A DNA stretch of 20,444 nt from a virus. Shown in pieces: positions 3,828-17,346 of the stretch. Made by a program: the position numbers and the translations under genes. The stretch spans positions 1-20,444 of IMG/VR virus record IMGVR_UViG_3300010157_000314; one strand, given 5' to 3'. Numbering within the stretch: the first letter of the stretch is position 1; the number at the start of each line of letters is the position of its first letter. The notes beneath the pieces were generated by a model. That model was not told the origin of the DNA. It saw only the letters and a list, made by a program, of their open reading frames with translations, and did not search any database.

Positions 3828-5444
3828 TTAAAAAAATGGGTTTGCGCTTGCTTCAACAGTAGGCATGACTAATTCCTTAGTCATCGACACCGCAATAGCT
3901 AATGAATCCACAAAATCATCGTGAGCATGGGCTTCATCTGGTGCAGAAACAGTAAAGTTTGGTCCCTTATAGTGTACCTCGGCGTCTACCATTTGTTGGT
4001 AGAAACGTTTCCAAATTCTTAAACGACGAGTTTTAGCATGAGCAGGCCACGCAATCATCCGTCGCTGAATAAGAGCCTGAAGATGCTTAAAACGTTTTGA
4101 TTGTTCTGATGGACTAGAAGTAAGAGGTACTACCTCAGCGCGTGGCATCAGCACCTTAAGACGCCCGGCCACTGCATCACCAACACCATTAGCGTCGATT
4201 CCTATAGCAAGTACGTCGTAAGCTCCTAAGAAGTTAACAATCTGGTAGTACTGCTCTTCCCAGTCATCGCCTTGAATTTCAAGCCAATTTAGAATTCTGT
4301 GGTCATAATAACCAAACTCATCTGGTCGATCCCAATCTACCCAGACCACAGTAACAATAGTGCTGTCCATCTTACGTGCGGGGTCAATACCTACAATTAC
4401 AGGTGACTGGTACCAACTCTTAACAATTTCTTGAGAGGTGTCTCCCAAGTCATCCATGACGTTAGAAGTAACAAACATCCCTCGTTCAAGCAACCACTTA
4501 CAGTTGTACGACATTTGAAACTCATCAGAGTCTTCACCAATACGTAGCATCTCTTTTTTGATGAACTTGCCGTAGTTAGGGTTGCACTTCTCTACATCGC
4601 GATAGTCCCATTGAAAATGGTTTTGTTTGGAATTACGTCCAGTTTGGCGTCTTTTATTAGACTGAATGGCTTTGTAAAAGTTGTTCTTGGAAGTTGTAGG
4701 AGTTCCGGTCTTAACCATCGTAGCGTTGTAGTAAGCGCCCATTGGAGAGATAGATTTAGCAACTACAAAGTCATCTGCCTCTTGACACTCATCAATGATC
4801 ATTAAGTGAAAAGACTTAGACTCAATCTTAGCTCTTGGGTTAGCTGTCATCATCATTGCAGTTGAGCCGCTGTTTTTGAGTTTAATGTTCTTAGTTACGC
4901 CAGGAACTTTACTCAGGCTGTCGTCAATCTCTGAGTCACCCAATATTGCGACTGCAGACTCACTAGTTAAGCGGGTTACGACACGAGAGAAAAGAGTTTC
5001 TGCCTGGGACTGTACGGGGGCAAACATGCCCACCCAAAGTCCATCGCCAAACTTACCAAGAAGTTCTGGGTACATTTGGGCAAGTCTTGGTAGCAAAACC
5101 ATTAAAGCAGCTACTGTGTTAGCAATAGTCTCTGACTTACCTGACTGACGTGCTGCAAGAGCAGTAACTTCTTCACCGTCGTTAATAATAACGGATTCAA
5201 TAATTCTTCTTGCCAAAGGCTTTTGATAAGGGTGAAGTTCATGCCCAACTAGAGCAGTCATAAACAGCATAATTTTATCAATTAGCTGTACAACAAACTC
5301 TCTTGACAGTTCATCTAAACCGTCGTCCTCTTCTTGCTCTTCTTCAGCCTCTTTATTTAGGTATTCTAGAGGATCTGGGAAATACAGTTCCTCAAAATTT
5401 TCACCTAAATTTTCTTCTTCTTCACTAAATTCCGGGTTCATCAT
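3828..5444 (-). CDS. terL: Terminase large subunit (packaging ATPase and nuclease)
   Basis: This motor pumps DNA into the prohead and cuts it. The 538-residue protein shows both domains. In the ATPase, Walker A is ARQSGKS (98-104), Walker B is LMIIDE (214-219) and the coupling motif is KTGTPT (245-250). In the RNase H-like nuclease, the acidic residues are D354 in VGIDPA, D417 in IGIDANG, and D509/D510 with D513 in HDDFVDS. The first 45 residues are unusually acidic (runs of Glu and Asp), an extension that could bind a partner. The start ATG at 5444 overlaps the stop of the preceding gene as ATGA, so translation is probably coupled. No recognisable small terminase is in the window. Confidence 0.95.
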   Translation of the reverse strand: MMNPEFSEEEENLGENFEELYFPDPLEYLNKEAEEEQEEDDGLDELSREFVVQLIDKIMLFMTALVGHELHPYQKPLARRIIESVIINDGEEVTALAARQSGKSETIANTVAALMVLLPRLAQMYPELLGKFGDGLWVGMFAPVQSQAETLFSRVVTRLTSESAVAILGDSEIDDSLSKVPGVTKNIKLKNSGSTAMMMTANPRAKIESKSFHLMIIDECQEADDFVVAKSISPMGAYYNATMVKTGTPTTSKNNFYKAIQSNKRRQTGRNSKQNHFQWDYRDVEKCNPNYGKFIKKEMLRIGEDSDEFQMSYNCKWLLERGMFVTSNVMDDLGDTSQEIVKSWYQSPVIVGIDPARKMDSTIVTVVWVDWDRPDEFGYYDHRILNWLEIQGDDWEEQYYQIVNFLGAYDVLAIGIDANGVGDAVAGRLKVLMPRAEVVPLTSSPSEQSKRFKHLQALIQRRMIAWPAHAKTRRLRIWKRFYQQMVDAEVHYKGPNFTVSAPDEAHAHDDFVDSLAIAVSMTKELVMPTVEASANPFF

Positions 5445-7042: not shown

Positions 7043-7339
7043 CTAGTCTTCCTCTTCTAAAGATTCTTTCTCTGAAGTGACGCAATTATGGTCCGGTAGA
7101 TTAGGTTCATGCACTAACGCTTGGCAGTTTCTGCATTTAAACCATTTATAAGGCCTAAAGTTATTCTGTGCTGTTCCCTCAACAGGGACTTCCGGACCCC
7201 CGTTTCCACTCCTTTGCTCATAATTCTCTACTACAGGTAGTGAACGGTAAAGCTCAGGAGGAAACGGACCTCTGGCGCCGCCAGCGGTTGTGGGTACAGG
7301 GTGCCCCTGCTTTGTCTGTACTCTAGTTATCCGAGACAT
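7043..7339 (-). CDS. Small protein with C-terminal zinc-binding motif
   Basis: In this 98-residue protein the first 60 residues are Pro/Gly-rich and probably flexible. A single zinc-finger-like element follows: C69, C72, H84 and C86 (FKCRNCQALVHEPNLPDHNC). The tail is acidic (EKESLEEED). The gene overlaps the upstream gene by 17 bases, which makes coupled translation likely. The function is unknown. Such knuckles can mediate protein or nucleic-acid contacts. Confidence 0.65.
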   Translation of the reverse strand: MSRITRVQTKQGHPVPTTAGGARGPFPPELYRSLPVVENYEQRSGNGGPEVPVEGTAQNNFRPYKWFKCRNCQALVHEPNLPDHNCVTSEKESLEEED

Positions 7340-7610
7340 CTGCAGCGCCTGGGTCTGTTGACTCTTCCGCTACCTTCTTCTTCTTATAAGGTGCTGGCAC
7401 TTCCACAGGAGTTTTTTCTACAACAGGCTCAGGATCAACTACAGGAGCTTCTACGGCTACTGTAGGCTGCTGAACGCGAGGCAATAATCCTGCACGATAA
7501 TCGTTAATTAACGACCATGGGATGCATGAACTACAAAAGTAGGCTGTTGAAGCAAACTCAGGTGCTGAGATGTATTCAGCCTCTGCTACACAGTTATCGC
7601 ATTTAATCAT
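7323..7610 (-). CDS. Zinc-ribbon-like protein with Pro/Val/Glu-rich tail
   Basis: The 95-residue product opens with a two-CxxC zinc ribbon (C4, C7, C26, C29), followed by a low-complexity segment of Pro, Val and Glu and a short KKKK stretch. I choose ATG 7610, which follows AAAGGTAACTATT. The longer frame from 7649 starts at TTG inside a strong hairpin. It is the first gene after that hairpin in the direction of transcription. Confidence 0.65.
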   Translation of the reverse strand: MIKCDNCVAEAEYISAPEFASTAYFCSSCIPWSLINDYRAGLLPRVQQPTVAVEAPVVDPEPVVEKTPVEVPAPYKKKKVAEESTDPGAADVSDN

Positions 7611-7633
7611 AATAGTTACCTTTTTGTTTATGT

Positions 7634-7679
7634 AGGAACCCCTACCCAAGCTGATTATAACAGCTCGGGCAGGGCTCCT
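7634..7679 (-). terminator. Long intergenic hairpin downstream of the 349-residue gene
   Basis: On the minus-strand RNA the arms pair over 19 positions with one bulge and a short AU-rich loop (UUAUAAU). Three pairs are G-U only on this strand. On the plus strand the same positions would be A-C mismatches, so the structure belongs to the minus transcript. The sequence after it is ACATAAAC, with no U-tract. It may attenuate transcription or protect the 3' end of the upstream mRNA. Confidence 0.6.
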
Positions 7680-7694
7680 GGGGGTTAAGCGAGA

Positions 7695-8744
7695 TTACTT
7701 CTTCTTGAACTCTACTGCGTAATCAAGATCAGCAAGTGAACCGCCAGCAACAAGAATTTCAAGTTCAACCTTTGAACCCGTAGTAATCTTGCCTGCAATA
7801 CGACCATCGGCATTGCCAAGGTTTGTAGCAGCAGGGAAGTTAATACCGCGAGTGCTTGTAGGAAGAATCTGATCTGAAACGTAGGCGTAGTATGCTGTAG
7901 TCTTGGTGTAATCAGCAGCCTTGTTGTAATCAGTTGTATCGGTTACAAGCTGAACAGCGTCAACTACCTGACCCTTAGTAACTACTGGCTGAGTAGCATT
8001 AGGGCTTGTTGAAGCAACAATTGTTGGAACAATAATTGCGTTACCTGAACCACTGAAAGTACCACTAGAGCTAACTGCGTAAGTAAAGCTGAAAGCATTT
8101 ACTACAGTAATTACAGCGCTAGTCACATGGTAACCAGTTGCAGTAGTAAGGTTAGAGATCGTAACCTTATCGCCAGTCTTCAAACCGTGAGGAACAGTTG
8201 AGCTGTTGTATGTAGCCACTGATCCGGACTGTGAGAAGTTAGCGTATGCGCCTGGGATAGCGCCTGAAAGGTGAGTAGCAGTTGCTACCTTTTCTGGGTA
8301 CTTAATTGTAAAAGTACCTGCAGACTGATTAACAGAAGCTACAGTTGCATCCTTCAAGTTGTAAGGAGCAAATGAAAGGCCATTGATCGTTACAACGTCA
8401 TTAGCAGACAAGTTATGTGCACCAGTTGTTGTAAAGGTCAAGGTAGTGCTGCTGTAAGCAGAGCTAGCATAGGTTGCATCGTTAGTTACGGATGCAATCT
8501 GGTAGTTCTTAGCAGTTGCGTAGTTGTAGTTGTACGTACGTGCGTAAACAGGAGGTGTAGTTGGAGGCGTAACCAAAATGTTAAACGTTGATGGTGAGGT
8601 TCCCACCGTACCTGCATAAACCTGGATGCTTGAAACATCAAGTTCACAAGGGGTAACAGCGAGAAGAGTTGTTACACCAGCAGAAACTGTGCTGGACTTA
8701 GTTCCGGCTACGACAAACGCGCCGGCGTCAAAATTCTCTGACAT
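7695..8744 (-). CDS. Beta-rich repeat protein, probable virion surface or decoration protein
   Basis: The 349-residue product is Ser/Thr/Ala/Val-rich with almost no Cys, typical of exposed beta-structured virion proteins. Two copies of a short module are visible. One is at about 101-149 (TTGAHNLSANDVVTINGL, then TVASVNQSAGTFTIKY). The other is at about 175-224 (VPHGLKTGDKVTISNL, then HVTSAVITVVNAFSFTY). The pattern H-[NG]-L-x-x-x-D-x-V-T-I recurs in many phage tail and decoration proteins. The start at 8744 has AAAAAGGTAA upstream, and a long hairpin follows the gene, as expected for an abundant product. A head fibre, decoration or tail tube role cannot be separated from sequence alone. Confidence 0.7.
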   Translation of the reverse strand: MSENFDAGAFVVAGTKSSTVSAGVTTLLAVTPCELDVSSIQVYAGTVGTSPSTFNILVTPPTTPPVYARTYNYNYATAKNYQIASVTNDATYASSAYSSTTLTFTTTGAHNLSANDVVTINGLSFAPYNLKDATVASVNQSAGTFTIKYPEKVATATHLSGAIPGAYANFSQSGSVATYNSSTVPHGLKTGDKVTISNLTTATGYHVTSAVITVVNAFSFTYAVSSSGTFSGSGNAIIVPTIVASTSPNATQPVVTKGQVVDAVQLVTDTTDYNKAADYTKTTAYYAYVSDQILPTSTRGINFPAATNLGNADGRIAGKITTGSKVELEILVAGGSLADLDYAVEFKKK

Positions 8745-10264: not shown

Positions 10265-12814
10265 TTAGTCCTCAGTTGCAGGTGGGGTATTCTTAGCGGC
10301 CTTGCGTTGCGCAGCTTTTTGCTTTTTGTACGCCGCTATATCTGCTTCAGTCTCTTCTGGAGTCTTAACAGTAGGAGCAGGACCTCTTGGGGCACTAGTA
10401 GTTGTGTACTCACTCATAGGAGCTTCTGGCTCTTCTTCTACCTCTGAAGGGATACGACGAGGCTCTTCAATAGGCATAGATCCTGGAACACCTGAACCAC
10501 GGTTACCGCCCGAAACAGCTGGAGGAATTACTACTCTAATATTCTTACCGGTAACTGTCCCAGCATGCTGAGCAATTTGATCAGCTTGAGAAGCAAGTTC
10601 TTCTGAAATTCTACCCTGTGCACGCTCTGCAATAGTTTCCTCTGGTCTTTCACGAGTTTCAGCATCAAACCCAGTGTCTGAAAGACCAGTAAGTTTTTGG
10701 TCAGCGTTGCCTGAGCGTTCAAACTGAGCCAGGGAAGCATTTGCTGCCTGTACACCAGAACGGTTCAAATGAGCCTTAATTACAGCCTCTGCACCTGTTT
10801 TCCAGGTATCTGCAGCGGTGGCAAGACGCGAAGCCATTTTTCCTAAGCGACTTTCAGGACGACGACTATGAGTCAGAATATCTTCAATCTCCTGGCTTTT
10901 ATTTTTTTGTCCCTTAAAATGACGCATGCCAGCATCAACTAGAGCAGAGATGTAGTCTCTTTCTTGTTGTGCCGTACCACCAGTACTAGAGTCCGCAAAT
11001 ATGTCACCAAACTCATCACCAGGAGCACGGTAGCTAACAGCGCCCGACGCAACGACGTCTAGCTGCGGGTTATCAATTTTAATTGGGTTTCCGTCTTTAT
11101 CGCGTTTTGTAATGTTACGAATGCCTCCAGTATGTGATGGAACCTCTTCAGTTAAGGTTTTTTGGCGATTTACAGTTTCTCTTTCAAAACCACGACGATT
11201 ACCAAGAACCGCTTGAACAGCCTTTTTTAGTCGCGAATGTGTCAACCCGTAACCACCAGTAATGTACTTAGCCCGCTCACCCATAGTCTTAGCATGTTCA
11301 GTGAGCATGTCCATAAGGTTGTAGCGGTCTTCTAGCTGTCCTGGTCCTGACCACGCAGGGTTATCCAAAAACTCTTTATGACCGGGGCGATGAATAGTTA
11401 CAAGGTTTCTTAGCTTGTTACCGTGCTCATCTGTGGAAGTTTGAGTGTACGTAAGGGCAAGAGGGATTTCGCTATAGTCACTAGCCATTGGCTTACCAGT
11501 CTGTGGGTGGGGATCACCCATATGTACATTACATTGGTATTTATCGCCGTAAGAGTTTACTAAATCCAATGGCTCCCCAGTTTCAGGATGTCTCCAAGGG
11601 CACTGCTCTGCGGTATGGTTTGGTTGACTATGGTCTCCAAAACTTTCGTCGTAACGTACTTTATGTTTTTCGTAACCAATCTCACGAGAAGCTTCCATTG
11701 CGGCTTGTGCTTCTTCTGCATGGTGTGTAAAAAAGTTATTTCTTAAGTCTGTATTTAAAGCCTCTGTAGAAGAAGTCCCACCTCTTGCCAAGTGCTCTTT
11801 AATTGCCCCCAATTGACCTTTAACACATGCTGAATTTCCGCACTGTACAACCCCTTGCTCATCCGTAGGATGGCGAGCATCGTGGTTAGCACTAGCAGCA
11901 ATAAGGCCCCGCATACCGTAGTGAACACCCACACTTCGTCTACGAGACTTAAATTGTGCTACTCGGTCGCGTAAGAACCTATTCCAATGCCTAATTGAGT
12001 AAGGGTTTGACCAGCGCTCTTTATTTTCTTGTTCAAGACCTCCCGGACCAAAACCAGTAACGTCATGGCGGCCCTTGTTGCGGCCCATTTCATCATTAAT
12101 TGCGTCTTCATCAGCAGCAGTAGTTCTACTTTCACCGCTAGTAGAAGTATTAATTAAAGGATTTGCATCCCCCTTAGCAACTCTTCTGCCAGGAGCTCCG
12201 CCACGTACTTCTTGGTACTTTCCAGCAATACCTTGCAAAACAGAGTTAATGATTGATGAAGTACCTAGTCCTGCACGTGTCTGCCAATCTTCATCAGCAA
12301 GACGGCGCCTAGTTTGCTCTTCATCGTACTTTCTATTGGATTCAGGATCTGACTCATCCATTCCCTGAAACATATCAGCAAATGCCTGTACGTTAGCAGA
12401 AATAGCGCGTCGAGCTTTAACTTTAGCAGAATCAGCTAGAGCCTCGGTATGACGCTCTGAAATACCCTCTACACTAGGTGCTCTTACTTTACCGGCTTCA
12501 AGATCCGCTTGAGCTTGGCCAGGTGTACGAACATTATCAGGATCTGGCTCCTTCATGGTGTCCATTACGTTACCCATGCCTGGCTGAGAGTCAAAGACCC
12601 TAGTATCTCCACGAGTAAGACCTAGTTGGTCTTCAGGGATTACGATTTTGCGCGGATCGGTATCCTCAGAATAAGGCCTGCCTGATGTATCAGTCCATGT
12701 TGAAGTATCAATAGGTTTTTCAGAAGGACCCTTGTCATTACCAATTACTTGTTCTGCAGGGATTTCATCAAAGCTCATTTTAATCTTTGGATCACGCTTA
12801 ATATTATCTGGCAT
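10265..12814 (-). CDS. Very large hydrophilic protein of the late block, function unknown
   Basis: At 849 residues this is the largest product in the window and I cannot assign it. It has no membrane segment. The N-terminal 170 residues are Asp/Pro/Glu-rich and the C-terminal 130 are Pro/Glu/Ala-rich, both likely disordered. The centre (about 260-650) is more ordered, with an Arg-rich patch FKSRRRSVGVHYGMRG. There are four Cys (C325, C330, C405, C428) close to His residues, and two similar HP-[EQ]-TG-[EK]-P motifs flank the last Cys pair. That would suit a zinc-stabilised domain. Size, hydrophilicity and location fit an internal or ejected virion protein or a tape-measure-like protein, but none is shown by the sequence. 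Confidence 0.72.
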   Translation of the reverse strand: MPDNIKRDPKIKMSFDEIPAEQVIGNDKGPSEKPIDTSTWTDTSGRPYSEDTDPRKIVIPEDQLGLTRGDTRVFDSQPGMGNVMDTMKEPDPDNVRTPGQAQADLEAGKVRAPSVEGISERHTEALADSAKVKARRAISANVQAFADMFQGMDESDPESNRKYDEEQTRRRLADEDWQTRAGLGTSSIINSVLQGIAGKYQEVRGGAPGRRVAKGDANPLINTSTSGESRTTAADEDAINDEMGRNKGRHDVTGFGPGGLEQENKERWSNPYSIRHWNRFLRDRVAQFKSRRRSVGVHYGMRGLIAASANHDARHPTDEQGVVQCGNSACVKGQLGAIKEHLARGGTSSTEALNTDLRNNFFTHHAEEAQAAMEASREIGYEKHKVRYDESFGDHSQPNHTAEQCPWRHPETGEPLDLVNSYGDKYQCNVHMGDPHPQTGKPMASDYSEIPLALTYTQTSTDEHGNKLRNLVTIHRPGHKEFLDNPAWSGPGQLEDRYNLMDMLTEHAKTMGERAKYITGGYGLTHSRLKKAVQAVLGNRRGFERETVNRQKTLTEEVPSHTGGIRNITKRDKDGNPIKIDNPQLDVVASGAVSYRAPGDEFGDIFADSSTGGTAQQERDYISALVDAGMRHFKGQKNKSQEIEDILTHSRRPESRLGKMASRLATAADTWKTGAEAVIKAHLNRSGVQAANASLAQFERSGNADQKLTGLSDTGFDAETRERPEETIAERAQGRISEELASQADQIAQHAGTVTGKNIRVVIPPAVSGGNRGSGVPGSMPIEEPRRIPSEVEEEPEAPMSEYTTTSAPRGPAPTVKTPEETEADIAAYKKQKAAQRKAAKNTPPATED

Positions 12815-13637: not shown

Positions 13638-13671
13638 ATCTCTAGTATGCACTTTAATAAACAATTTGTAT

Positions 13672-13715
13672 TACTAAAAGTAAATGCAGGGCCCCGGTTT
13701 ATCCGAAGCCCTGCA
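13672..13715 (-). terminator. Intrinsic terminator downstream of the TM/H1-like gene
   Basis: On the minus strand TGCAGGGC (13708-13715) and GCCCTGCA (13685-13692) form a perfect 8-bp stem. A second CGG/CCG stem lies inside, and the U-rich tract UUUACUUUUA follows. It separates the gene ending at 13731 from the one starting at 13637. Confidence 0.75.
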
Positions 13716-13730
13716 CTGTAGTTAGTTAGG

Positions 13731-14066
13731 TTACTTTGCGCGTGAAGCAGCTTTCTTTTCAGCGACCTTCTTTGCAACTGCCTTCTTTGCAGGTGCAGCT
13801 TTCTTTGCGACGCTCCGGCCCGTATTGACAGCCTTAACAGCACTAGGAGTGACTGCATGGCTACCACGAACTGACGCTAGGTCATCGACGCGGTCATGTA
13901 CAATCTGTAGGTTTTCTTCTACGTAGTCTGCGTATGCATGATAATTGACACTACGCAAAACGTCTCGGTCACGTAGGTTCTCAATAGCGTTAAATACTAC
14001 ATATGAGAAGCATGCAGTGTACACAGCCAAGATGCCTAGTACTACAAATGTTAGTGTATCGGACAT
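13731..14066 (-). CDS. Membrane-anchored protein with histone H1-like Lys/Ala tail
   Basis: The 111-residue product has one N-terminal membrane helix (about residues 6-26, LTFVVLGILAVYTACFSYVV), a mixed helical segment (30-70), and a tail from about residue 84. The tail is built almost only of Lys, Ala, Val and Pro in AKKAxxAKK units, like bacterial histone H1-type DNA-binding tails. The start is ATG 14066 with AGAAGGAA upstream. A longer frame to 14114 crosses a hairpin and is rejected. A role in tethering DNA at the membrane is an inference from the two parts. It is followed by a strong terminator. Confidence 0.7.
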   Translation of the reverse strand: MSDTLTFVVLGILAVYTACFSYVVFNAIENLRDRDVLRSVNYHAYADYVEENLQIVHDRVDDLASVRGSHAVTPSAVKAVNTGRSVAKKAAPAKKAVAKKVAEKKAASRAK

Positions 14067-15570: not shown

Positions 15571-16014
15571 TTACTTGCAATGCCTGCAATCAAGATGAAG
15601 CAGCTTGTGGATAGCTCTTATCTCAGGAGGAGCTTCTCTAGATACGTGGTGACTTACACTAGGATTAGGACTCATAACAAGTTGATGCTGCTGTTCAGGA
15701 GTAAAATCAGGCCTACTAGTAATTCCTCCTGATATCCAAGAAGCAGTATGATCAGGACCCATATTATTAAGAACTTTTACTACGTGGTCTGTGGGGGAAT
15801 TTATTGCGAGATCTTTCAAATTATCAGATGAACTCCTTACTTTTACTTTAGCAGCAGAATAGTCATCTTTTGTATGAGTACCTGAGAGTATGCCATACCA
15901 AGCTTTATCTTCCTCTTTCATATGTGCGTCATACTCATCTGCCGCTCTTTGAAGACGCGACAGTCCCTCATCGCCTTGTGGCTGCCCGTTAAATTGGGGG
16001 TTTTGTGGCTCCAT
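15571..16014 (-). CDS. Hypothetical protein, first gene of the late block
   Basis: The 147-residue product is polar. It has a Gln/Asn/Pro-rich start (MEPQNPQFNGQPQGDEG), a helical middle (LSRLQRAADEYDAHMKEEDK), several His (QQHQLVMSPNPSVSHHVSRE), and ends in LDCRHCK, a CxxC at the extreme C-terminus. GGGAGG lies very close to ATG 16014. A TTG at 16023 and a later ATG are alternatives, so the start is uncertain. It stands alone between a palindromic element upstream and a hairpin downstream. I do not recognise the family. Confidence 0.58.
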   Translation of the reverse strand: MEPQNPQFNGQPQGDEGLSRLQRAADEYDAHMKEEDKAWYGILSGTHTKDDYSAAKVKVRSSSDNLKDLAINSPTDHVVKVLNNMGPDHTASWISGGITSRPDFTPEQQHQLVMSPNPSVSHHVSREAPPEIRAIHKLLHLDCRHCK

Positions 16015-16036
16015 ACCTCCCAAGTTAACACGTTTT

Positions 16037-16049
16037 TAGGCCACTGCCT
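16037..16049. repeat. 13-bp palindromic element, copy 2
   Basis: This is the same 13-mer as at 15459-15471. Here the symmetry extends: TAGGC and GCCTA around CACT. A wider TTTTTAG (16033-16039) and CTAAAAA (16051-16057) pair surrounds it. It lies 23 bases upstream of ATG 16014. Confidence 0.7.
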
Positions 16050-16080
16050 AGCTAAAAAGGGGCTACTTGCCCGTCTCTCC

Positions 16081-16114
16081 TGGCGCTAAGGTGTGAGAAA
16101 TGGCGTTAAAGGTG
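16081..16114. repeat. Tandem direct repeat, 20-bp spacing
   Basis: TGGCGCTAAGGTG (16081-16093) is repeated as TGGCGTTAAAGGTG (16101-16114), starts exactly 20 bp apart, about two helical turns. A GTGTGA follows the first copy and recurs at 16119-16124. Spacing on one face of the helix suits tandem binding of a regulator. Confidence 0.5.
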
Positions 16115-16167
16115 GGGGGTGTGATTATGACGTACTATGACTAGGTACGCACCAAGCAGGTCGGGGT

Positions 16168-16243
16168 TGCGGAGGGGGCGGAGCTATGCTCGCTTTCGGG
16201 TGAGTATCTCACGCCTCCACGGCCCCGGCCGTACCATTCCGCA
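16168..16243 (+). ncRNA. Predicted compact multi-branched structured RNA
   Basis: Five stems nest without conflict in 76 bases. P1 is TGCGGA (16168-16173) with TCCGCA (16238-16243). P2 is GGGGGCG (16174-16180) with CGCCTCC (16212-16218). P3 is GAGC-TAT-GCTC (16181-16191). P4 is TGAG-TAT-CTCA (16201-16211). P5 is ACGGCC-CC-GGCCGT (16219-16232). P1 stacks directly on P2, P3 is flush with P2, and P4 and P5 abut it. One P2 pair is G-U only on the plus strand, which favours a rightward transcript. I do not recognise a known family. Confidence 0.5.
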
Positions 16244-16260
16244 TCTCTTCTCTCGTGGTT

Positions 16261-16336
16261 GCCGTGGCTGCCTATCTTTGGCAGTGGTAGTTCCCGCTTA
16301 GCGGGGCAATGCAGGGTTCGACTCCCTGTCACGGCA
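16261..16336 (+). ncRNA. tRNA-like element with canonical T-arm and acceptor stem
   Basis: The total length is 76 bases. The acceptor GCCGTGG (16261-16267) pairs with TCACGGC (16329-16335), seven pairs with one G-U, followed by discriminator A and no encoded CCA. The T-arm CAGGG-TTCGACT-CCCTG (16312-16328) is textbook. The middle is not. A strong hairpin CTGCC-TATCTTT-GGCAG (16268-16284) replaces a normal D-arm. The anticodon-like arm CCC-GCTTAGC-GGG (16293-16305) has C instead of U before a UUA triplet and can close further into CCCGC-TTA-GCGGG. It may be a tRNA-like processing or regulatory element, a degenerate tRNA, or an aberrant tRNA. Confidence 0.5.
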
Positions 16337-16376
16337 CGTCACAACTCGGTGACACTTCATAGGAAGGCAAATCGCT

Positions 16377-16994
16377 ATGAGCGACGCCCCTAGCACGACC
16401 CCAGTTCTGGAGATTACTCTCCCAGAACGACCTGAAGAGCAAGTCCAGTACCTTACCGGCATCATGCGTGGTATGGGCAAGAACGTACATCACGCGTATC
16501 CGCTAGTCCTCGATGGTTTCGAGGCTCTTGGCAGGGATACACGTGAGTCCTGCATTGCACTTATCCACAATACTGAGGGTAAGAGTACTACGACTGGCAC
16601 GGAGACTGTATTCACCGCCAATCAGGCTAGGTGGATGGCAGGTCTGGTCATTTTCGTCCACCTCAATGGTGTGGTGACTACTGATCAGGCTTACAGCCTC
16701 GCGCAAGATGCCCTGTTCAAGGCAGGTTCACACCCTGCACTTGAGGAGTTGGAAGTCATCGTCAACGCTGTGTTGAGTGATGACCCAATGGGTACCCTTC
16801 TTGCACTGGGACAGTCTGCCCGTGTCAAGCGTGAAGCAGCACAGCGTGAGACTGACCATAAGAAAGCGGTCGCTCTCACTCCTGCTGAGGACTTGTACCG
16901 AGAGTGCGAGAAGTTCATTGCCGTCCACGGCATGAAGTTCTTCCTCGCACACTTCGGAATTACTCTGACTGAACCAAAAGAACAGTCTGAGTAA
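16377..16994 (+). CDS. First gene of the plus-strand block, function unknown
   Basis: The 205-residue product is not recognised. It starts with MSDAPSTTPVLEITLPERPE and appears mostly helical, with LVLDGFEALGRDTRESCIAL, ARWMAGLVIFVHLNG, LEELEVIVNAVL and a charged helix ending in LTEPKEQSE. The WMAGLVIFVHLNGVVTT segment is hydrophobic but too short and mixed for a clear membrane helix. The start is ATG 16377 with AGGAAGG upstream. Codons end in C or G more often than in the late genes. It directly follows the structured control region and is followed by a strong hairpin, so it is probably a single-gene early transcript, perhaps abundant. Confidence 0.75.
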   Translation: MSDAPSTTPVLEITLPERPEEQVQYLTGIMRGMGKNVHHAYPLVLDGFEALGRDTRESCIALIHNTEGKSTTTGTETVFTANQARWMAGLVIFVHLNGVVTTDQAYSLAQDALFKAGSHPALEELEVIVNAVLSDDPMGTLLALGQSARVKREAAQRETDHKKAVALTPAEDLYRECEKFIAVHGMKFFLAHFGITLTEPKEQSE

Positions 16995-17021
16995 TTCTCT
17001 CCACCCACGAGATGGGAGGCT

Positions 17022-17045
17022 GGCTAGGGGCTTATGTCCCTAGCC
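17022..17045 (+). terminator. Strong hairpin downstream of the 205-residue gene
   Basis: GGCTAGGG (17022-17029) and CCCTAGCC (17038-17045) form a perfect 8-bp stem with loop GCTTATGT, 27 bases after the stop. No U-tract follows, so it might be an RNA-stability element rather than a classical terminator. Confidence 0.55.
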
Positions 17046-17051
17046 TGTCTA

Positions 17052-17163
17052 GGGTACAGGGTCCCCCGACGTAAACAATCACACCCCTGTGCCCCAGTCA
17101 GGCTACTGTCCGTCAGTAACTCTCAGTGATGAGAGTACCACCAGGCTATCGGGCTTGGGTGGT
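17052..17163 (+). promoter_or_regulatory. Structured leader upstream of the small-gene operon
   Basis: Three further stems follow in the 196-base gap. GGGTACAGGG (17052-17061) pairs with CCCTGTGCCC (17085-17094), ten pairs with one U-G. ACTCTCA-GTGA-TGAGAGT (17119-17136) is a 7-bp inverted repeat. ACCACC (17137-17142) pairs with GGTGGT (17158-17163). The loop of the first stem carries a motif shared with 18526-18543. The next gene starts at 17191 behind TTAGGAGG. It could be a regulatory leader or a promoter with operators. I cannot decide which. Confidence 0.45.
17067..17084 (+). repeat. Conserved intergenic motif, copy 1
   Basis: CGACGTAAACAATCACAC matches CAACATAAACAATCGCGC at 18526-18543 at 14 of 18 positions, and all four differences are A/G exchanges. 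Both copies lie in non-coding spacers of the plus-strand block. Confidence 0.45.
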
Positions 17164-17190
17164 GTCTGTTATCAGGTTAGGAGGCCTGCC

Positions 17191-17346
17191 ATGGCATGTG
17201 AGTGCCGCAAGTACCACAAGATAGGGCATGACGCCTGTATGAGACAGGGCGTGCATGTCTGTTCACCGTGTGAGTGCGACTGTCACTACAAGCACGGTGG
17301 GGACTTGCATAACTGCAAGTTTACAGACTGTAAGGAGGTGAAGTGA
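17191..17346 (+). CDS. Extremely Cys/His-rich small protein (51 aa)
   Basis: Nine Cys (3, 5, 16, 24, 27, 29, 31, 42, 47) and six His (9, 13, 22, 32, 35, 40) in 51 residues make almost a third of the protein potential metal ligands. The densest part is CSPCECDCHYKHGG. This composition suits binding of several zinc ions, either as a compact multi-zinc fold or as a metallothionein-like sink. I do not recognise a family. ATG 17191 is chosen because TTAGGAGG lies at proper distance. A frame opening at 17089 crosses the structured leader without a ribosome binding site. The stop overlaps the next start as TGATG. Confidence 0.72.
   Translation: MACECRKYHKIGHDACMRQGVHVCSPCECDCHYKHGGDLHNCKFTDCKEVK

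Follow-up and report, generated by a model that had tools for sequence, protein, structure and literature searches.

As reviewed in PMC11143913, the RNase P model substrates of McClain and Altman are hairpins composed of an acceptor stem, a T stem, and a T loop, and Hartmann et al. 1995, as cited there and in PMC4919922, identified the precursor of the C4 antisense RNA of phages P1 and P7 as an RNase P substrate. In eukaryotes, the tRNA-like elements at the 3' ends of MALAT1 and MEN beta (mascRNA and menRNA) are cut by RNase P plus RNase Z, while in mitochondria tRNA-shaped signals (t-elements, tRNA punctuation) set mRNA ends via the tRNA-processing enzymes (PMC4919922). The stretch of DNA analyzed here (the window) is a complete viral contig record of 20,444 bp, with a putative 5' leader RNA (16120-16376, plus strand) in front of its first plus-strand gene, a 205-aa ORF at 16377-16994. 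We give about an even chance to the reading that this leader consists of an upstream stable RNA domain and a downstream tRNA mimic cut by host RNase P.

Most genes up to position 16023 are on the minus strand, including those for the portal (1297-2979) and the large terminase (3828-5444), and a small plus-strand gene block starts at 16377. The terminase is ca. 96 to 97% identical to those of three contigs (L002 to L004) and 51 to 53% identical to those of the Streptomyces phages BRock, LuckySocke, and relatives. The contigs of L002 to L004 stop short of the control region considered below. WhiB, an actinobacterial marker (PMC10202952), is encoded by 8 of the 13 related records examined, mainly the longer ones, and is missing from the window itself. 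Given WhiB in the relatives and the terminase similarity to Streptomyces phages, the host is most likely an actinobacterium, and the relatives, together with the literature on such phages, point to a freshwater origin. Close homologues of the leader or its gene were found neither in isolate phages, viral contigs, and species genomes nor in 41 TerL-related records.

Sequence searches gave no homologue; the equivalent slot was located in the relatives by synteny. In the window it follows a divergent control motif (16039-16119) made up of GGCCACTG (16039-16046), TCTCTCCTGG (16074-16083), and TTAAAGGTGGGGGG (16106-16119), boxes that recur in the relatives at near-constant spacing. The general order is left genes, GGCYACTG, 27 to 29 nt, TCTCWCCTGG, ca. 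31 nt, and TTAAGGGTRGGGGGG or a variant; after the last box come a nonconserved leader of 124 to 257 nt (eight cases measured) and an ORF of 166 to 205 aa. The motif would act as a promoter or operator. No promoter consensus was found, and no site in 15950-17250 resembled a plus-strand intrinsic terminator (GC-rich stem plus T run). Scanning species genomes for the control motif gave two matches, in Actinomadura and Leptolyngbya, both taken as chance. A second set of boxes (GGCYACTG ... ACCAGG ... TGTWATCAGG), whose first box is common to the divergent control motif, was found in the window at approximately 17105-17180 and in L019, L059, L082, L085, L088, L113, L116, L127, L129, L131, and L145, with the spacing fixed at 75 to 78 nt in all carriers; it has no conserved pairing and is probably a DNA control element.

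Within the leader, a first-pass annotation had singled out positions 16168-16243 as a compact five-stem RNA too dense to be expected by chance and, because of a G-U pair, compatible only with a plus-strand transcript. Folded alone, this segment reached -41.9 kcal/mol (z of -4.0), outside the distribution of the shuffled controls (0 of 200 as good), and a repeat with 500 shuffles gave a z of -4.2 on the plus strand versus -1.4 on the minus strand. The structure therefore favors a plus-strand RNA, in agreement with the G-U argument. When the whole record was scanned in 76-nt segments on a 25-nt grid, the lowest-energy one overlapped 16168-16243. However, ca. 0.8% of this phage's 76-nt segments reach a z of -4 or lower, so that the folding energy is notable and not unique. 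On the minus strand, folding was strongest at 7601-7701 and 13651-13751, where z values of about -5 to -6 coincide with or lie near gene boundaries, possibly marking terminators or processing hairpins.

The strand bias also bears on a DNA-level explanation, in which the region would be a replication origin or an attachment site and RNA folding a by-product. The cumulative GC skew turns here, and the region is divergent and contains a G run; yet the switch in coding strand would by itself lead one to expect such a turn, no iterons were seen in the region, and if the region were an attP site copying the 3' end of a tRNA, the matching 5' acceptor strand should be missing. With the folding biased to the plus strand, we regard this explanation as highly improbable.

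The predicted fold of 16168-16243 is a three-way junction closed by P1 (16168-16173/16238-16243). As annotated, there are five helices with P1 stacked on P2 (16174-16180/16212-16218), but the three flush hairpins are instead one long arm, formed by P2, P3 (16181-16183/16208-16210), and P4 (16186-16194/16199-16207), and a single hairpin (16219-16223/16228-16232), both on P1. Pair probabilities computed in 30 sequence contexts revealed a different way of closing the fold, in which 16159-16166 pairs with 16223-16230 (stem P0); P0 cannot coexist with either P1 or the hairpin at 16219-16232. When the RNA of 16118-16160 was added, P0 usually outcompeted both, and the probability of P1 ranged from 0 to ca. 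0.95 depending on the ends taken, leaving the central arm (16174-16218; pair probability of 0.79 to 0.99) as the only part of the fold stable in every context. The five-stem RNA thus owes part of its shape to where the segment was cut and did not stand as a unit; its sequence was also not found in the 41 TerL-related records, and since no close relative covering 16168-16243 was found, no covariance model could be built for these 76 nt. The fold is a real, partly context-dependent piece of a larger structured mRNA leader: the unit exceeds 76 nt, the whole of 16120-16376 having a z of -4.7 on the plus strand (-2.6 on the minus strand) and including a tRNA-like element at 16261-16336.

The suggestion of a leader element controlling the plus-strand block is supported: in the relatives, too, the slot holds a leader that is structured on the plus strand and precedes a similarly sized gene. 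The plus-strand z ranged from -3.6 to -7.5 in seven of eight slot leaders tested (-1.2 in L084), and the plus strand folded better than the minus strand in all eight. The leader sequence drifts and the plus-strand structure stays; with such z values in a nonconserved sequence, it is structure, not sequence, that is kept. The ORFs that follow are very divergent among relatives, with nothing credible in Pfam or PHROGs, and an AlphaFold model of the one in L142 was helical and of low confidence (pLDDT of 64). In the window, a likely ribosome-binding site, AGGAAGG (16361-16367), can be read 9 nt upstream of the start codon, and the fraction of C-ending codons is 0.64 in the ORF compared to a mean of 0.44 in the other long ORFs. 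At every one of the 12 loci compared (the twelfth being L116, with a slot-like 225-aa ORF), the slot ORF exceeded the mean of its long neighbors, a bias expected of strongly expressed genes, so that the slot gene is probably highly expressed.

The most informative part of the leader, absent from the first-pass annotation, begins 18 nt beyond 16243. In this tRNA-like element (16261-16336, plus strand), an acceptor stem (16261-16267/16329-16335), with pair probabilities of 0.98 to 1.00 in all contexts, stacks with a T stem (16312-16316/16324-16328) into 12 bp topped by a canonical T loop, TTCGACT (16317-16323). A discriminator-like A (A16336), able to pair with U16260, stands next to the acceptor 3' strand. 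From 16261 to 16335 the element measures 75 nt, as a tRNA does, and two other hairpins replace the tRNA bottom half. Directly 3' of it lies the hairpin GTCAC-AACTCG-GTGAC (16338-16353).

An acceptor-T element of this kind was present in 6 of the 11 slot leaders (the window, L082, L084, L142, L143, and L145), always ending 41 to 54 nt upstream of the start codon, with a small hairpin only a few nucleotides further on. In the remaining five (L085, L089, L092, L093, and L113), the hairpins are long and carry no T loop. Three of the six (L142, L143, and L145) belong to new control regions retrieved with a control-motif pattern containing no T-loop term, and the element appeared in all three. The insert replacing the tRNA bottom half has 0, 13, or 44 nt, and the three copies without a bottom half keep a perfect 12-bp stack; in L082 and L084, this bare version (12 contiguous pairs plus T loop, in the same slot) is followed by ACCA or ACGC.

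The first strict scan for the element had fixed the stack at 12 bp and was therefore repeated without a fixed length. It returned 10 non-tRNA matches with stacks of at least 11 bp in 2.36 Mb, mostly of 12 to 13 bp; dinucleotide-shuffled sequence totaling 18.8 Mb yielded 5, none of them above 12 bp. Six of the 10 were the slot leaders, and three were located downstream of the slot gene, one each in L082, L145, and L116. The last (L125:4849-4893), with a 14-nt insert, ends 3 nt before a start codon in an apparently unrelated phage, and given this copy the element may extend beyond the present phage group. A second tRNA-like element in L145, at about 7099-7165, resembles that of the window in sequence (GCCGTTGCT..TTGGCAG..ACGGCACGT) and precedes an ORF resembling the window ORF that starts at 17192; judging from this resemblance, the element may move between leaders.

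L142 and L143 are homologous (76% protein identity), and among the 12 acceptor and T-stem pairs of their elements 8 are unchanged and 4 show two-sided compensatory replacement, with no other change, a covariation that concerns these two sequences and not the window element's own stems. The T loop is retained while both stems change, and one further pair, in the hairpin after the element, differs on both sides. The flanks of both elements can also pair (TTACGG/CCGTAA). No further relatives of this pair were found. These data weigh on two other explanations. The first, to which we assign a low though appreciable probability, is a plain mRNA-stabilizing or translation-tuning leader, whose structures protect a strongly expressed mRNA at its 5' end or leave the ribosome-binding site accessible; the stem with the T loop would then be just another of several hairpins, and uncut. 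Strong hairpins in all the leaders, the lack of the T loop in five, and the expression-like codon bias of the following gene would suit it, but it leaves unexplained a canonical T loop on a 12- to 13-bp stack in six leaders, far above chance, and its preservation in L142 and L143 despite the change in both stems. The second, decay of phage tRNA genes into functionless remnants within the leader, would agree with the tRNA size of the window element and the real tRNA genes in relatives. We consider it very improbable because the stems are kept by compensatory changes, the stack is still perfect in the copies that lack a bottom half, and the position upstream of the start codon is constant.

ARAGORN found no tRNA gene at 16261-16336, and there is no cloverleaf with a D arm and a 7-nt anticodon loop containing U33; what 16261-16335 has in common with tRNA genes is the acceptor stem plus T arm, the TTCRA loop, and the 12-bp stack. 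No Rfam family matched the leader at gathering and, as the first-pass annotation had supposed, Rfam 15 gave nothing over the fold itself at an E value of ≤10. Selenocysteine tRNA (RF01852; 20.4 bits versus a gathering cutoff of 47) and mascRNA-menRNA (RF01684; 17.5 versus 42.5 bits) were discarded. So were C4 antisense RNA, with no Rfam match at gathering in the window and none at an E value of ≤10 around the fold, and bacterial Y RNA, with no YrlA match in the window and no TROVE protein encoded by the 15 relatives searched, several of which are incomplete records. Compared with an RNase P substrate, the six slot leaders have the acceptor-T stack and T loop, whereas the encoded 3' RCCA is found only in L082 (ACCA), most copies having ACGY and the window ACGT. 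Many tRNA genes also lack an encoded CCA.

Other tRNA-like RNAs were met in the relatives. Streptomyces phage LuckySocke carries an unannotated 81-nt RNA (L108:17977-18057, plus strand) that matched the Rfam tmRNA model above gathering (48.6 bits; E value, 1.3e-18), with a counterpart in BRock (L107, about 11143-11221, minus strand). It lacks ca. 300 nt of the model, comprising a tRNA-like domain with the G3-U70 pair kept and no tag-coding part, and is present at 78 to 100% identity in five Streptomyces phages, in none of which it is annotated as tmRNA. A 95.7-kb relative (record G012; L022:84-374 and L086) has a full tmRNA gene predicted by ARAGORN.

From the computed plus-strand structure, tRNA-like geometry, recurrence in the same slot, and compensatory changes in one homologous pair, we infer a transcribed leader in which host RNase P would read the T loop and 12-bp stack and cut 5' of G16261. 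RNase Z and/or a CCA-adding enzyme may act after A16336. The cut would separate the upstream structured RNA, including the fold at 16168-16243, from the message, and either the tRNA-like stem or the hairpin at 16338-16353, just before the ribosome-binding site, would protect the remaining 5' end, with a possible effect on expression. The conserved parts (T loop, 12-bp stack, and discriminator-like A) are those read by tRNA enzymes, and the varying parts (bottom half and stem sequence) those that they ignore; cleavage before G16261 is the simplest account. Against it stand the five leaders of 11 without the element, the lack of CCA in most copies, the paired flanks in L142 and L143, which might impede RNase P, and, in the window, the potential U16260-A16336 pair. 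Alternatively, the element could act uncut and regulate translation by binding a partner such as EF-Tu, an enzyme that modifies the T arm, or a protein of the phage, perhaps the one encoded by the slot gene. EF-Tu and T-arm enzymes read the same acceptor-T domain, and the paired flanks in L142 and L143 would be in keeping with an element that is bound and stays intact; with no such phage regulation found in the literature searched, we judge regulation by binding to be improbable.

Returning to cleavage by RNase P, a broader proposal, tentative and somewhat short of even in our estimate, is that freshwater actinophages punctuate their early mRNAs with mini tRNA mimics (acceptor-T half retained, bottom half of 0 to 44 nt), host enzymes excising the leader RNA and thereby fixing where a highly expressed mRNA begins. 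If this is true, host tRNA-maturation enzymes serve these phages as an mRNA processing system, which would explain why one tRNA-shaped feature is kept in a poorly conserved leader. It would also provide a way to find such elements, missed by tRNA finders and Rfam.

The element is a variant of known tRNA-like processing elements, and no prior report of such leaders in phages was found in the literature searched, which was limited to open-licence papers. The RNase P model substrates have the geometry of the L082, L084, and L145 elements (12-bp stack plus T loop), but they are designed RNAs, whereas the phage leaders are natural, mostly without CCA, and putatively cleaved. If the proposal holds, they would offer a natural series of minimal substrates, the smallest a bare 12-bp hairpin and the largest close to a tRNA in size, with which to study how little of a tRNA RNase P needs in cells. 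Like the window leader, C4 of P1 and P7 is a phage leader-type RNA for which host RNase P processing is proposed; the window leader differs in matching no C4 family in Rfam and in having a T-loop tRNA-like stem directly upstream of the mRNA. In mascRNA and menRNA, as in the window, a tRNA-like element lies downstream of a structured RNA, although they belong to eukaryotic 3'-end formation and the window scores far below the cutoff of their family. Mitochondrial t-elements are organellar, and a counterpart in phage mRNAs was not found in the literature searched; if the proposal is right, tRNA punctuation gains a new use in bacterial viruses.
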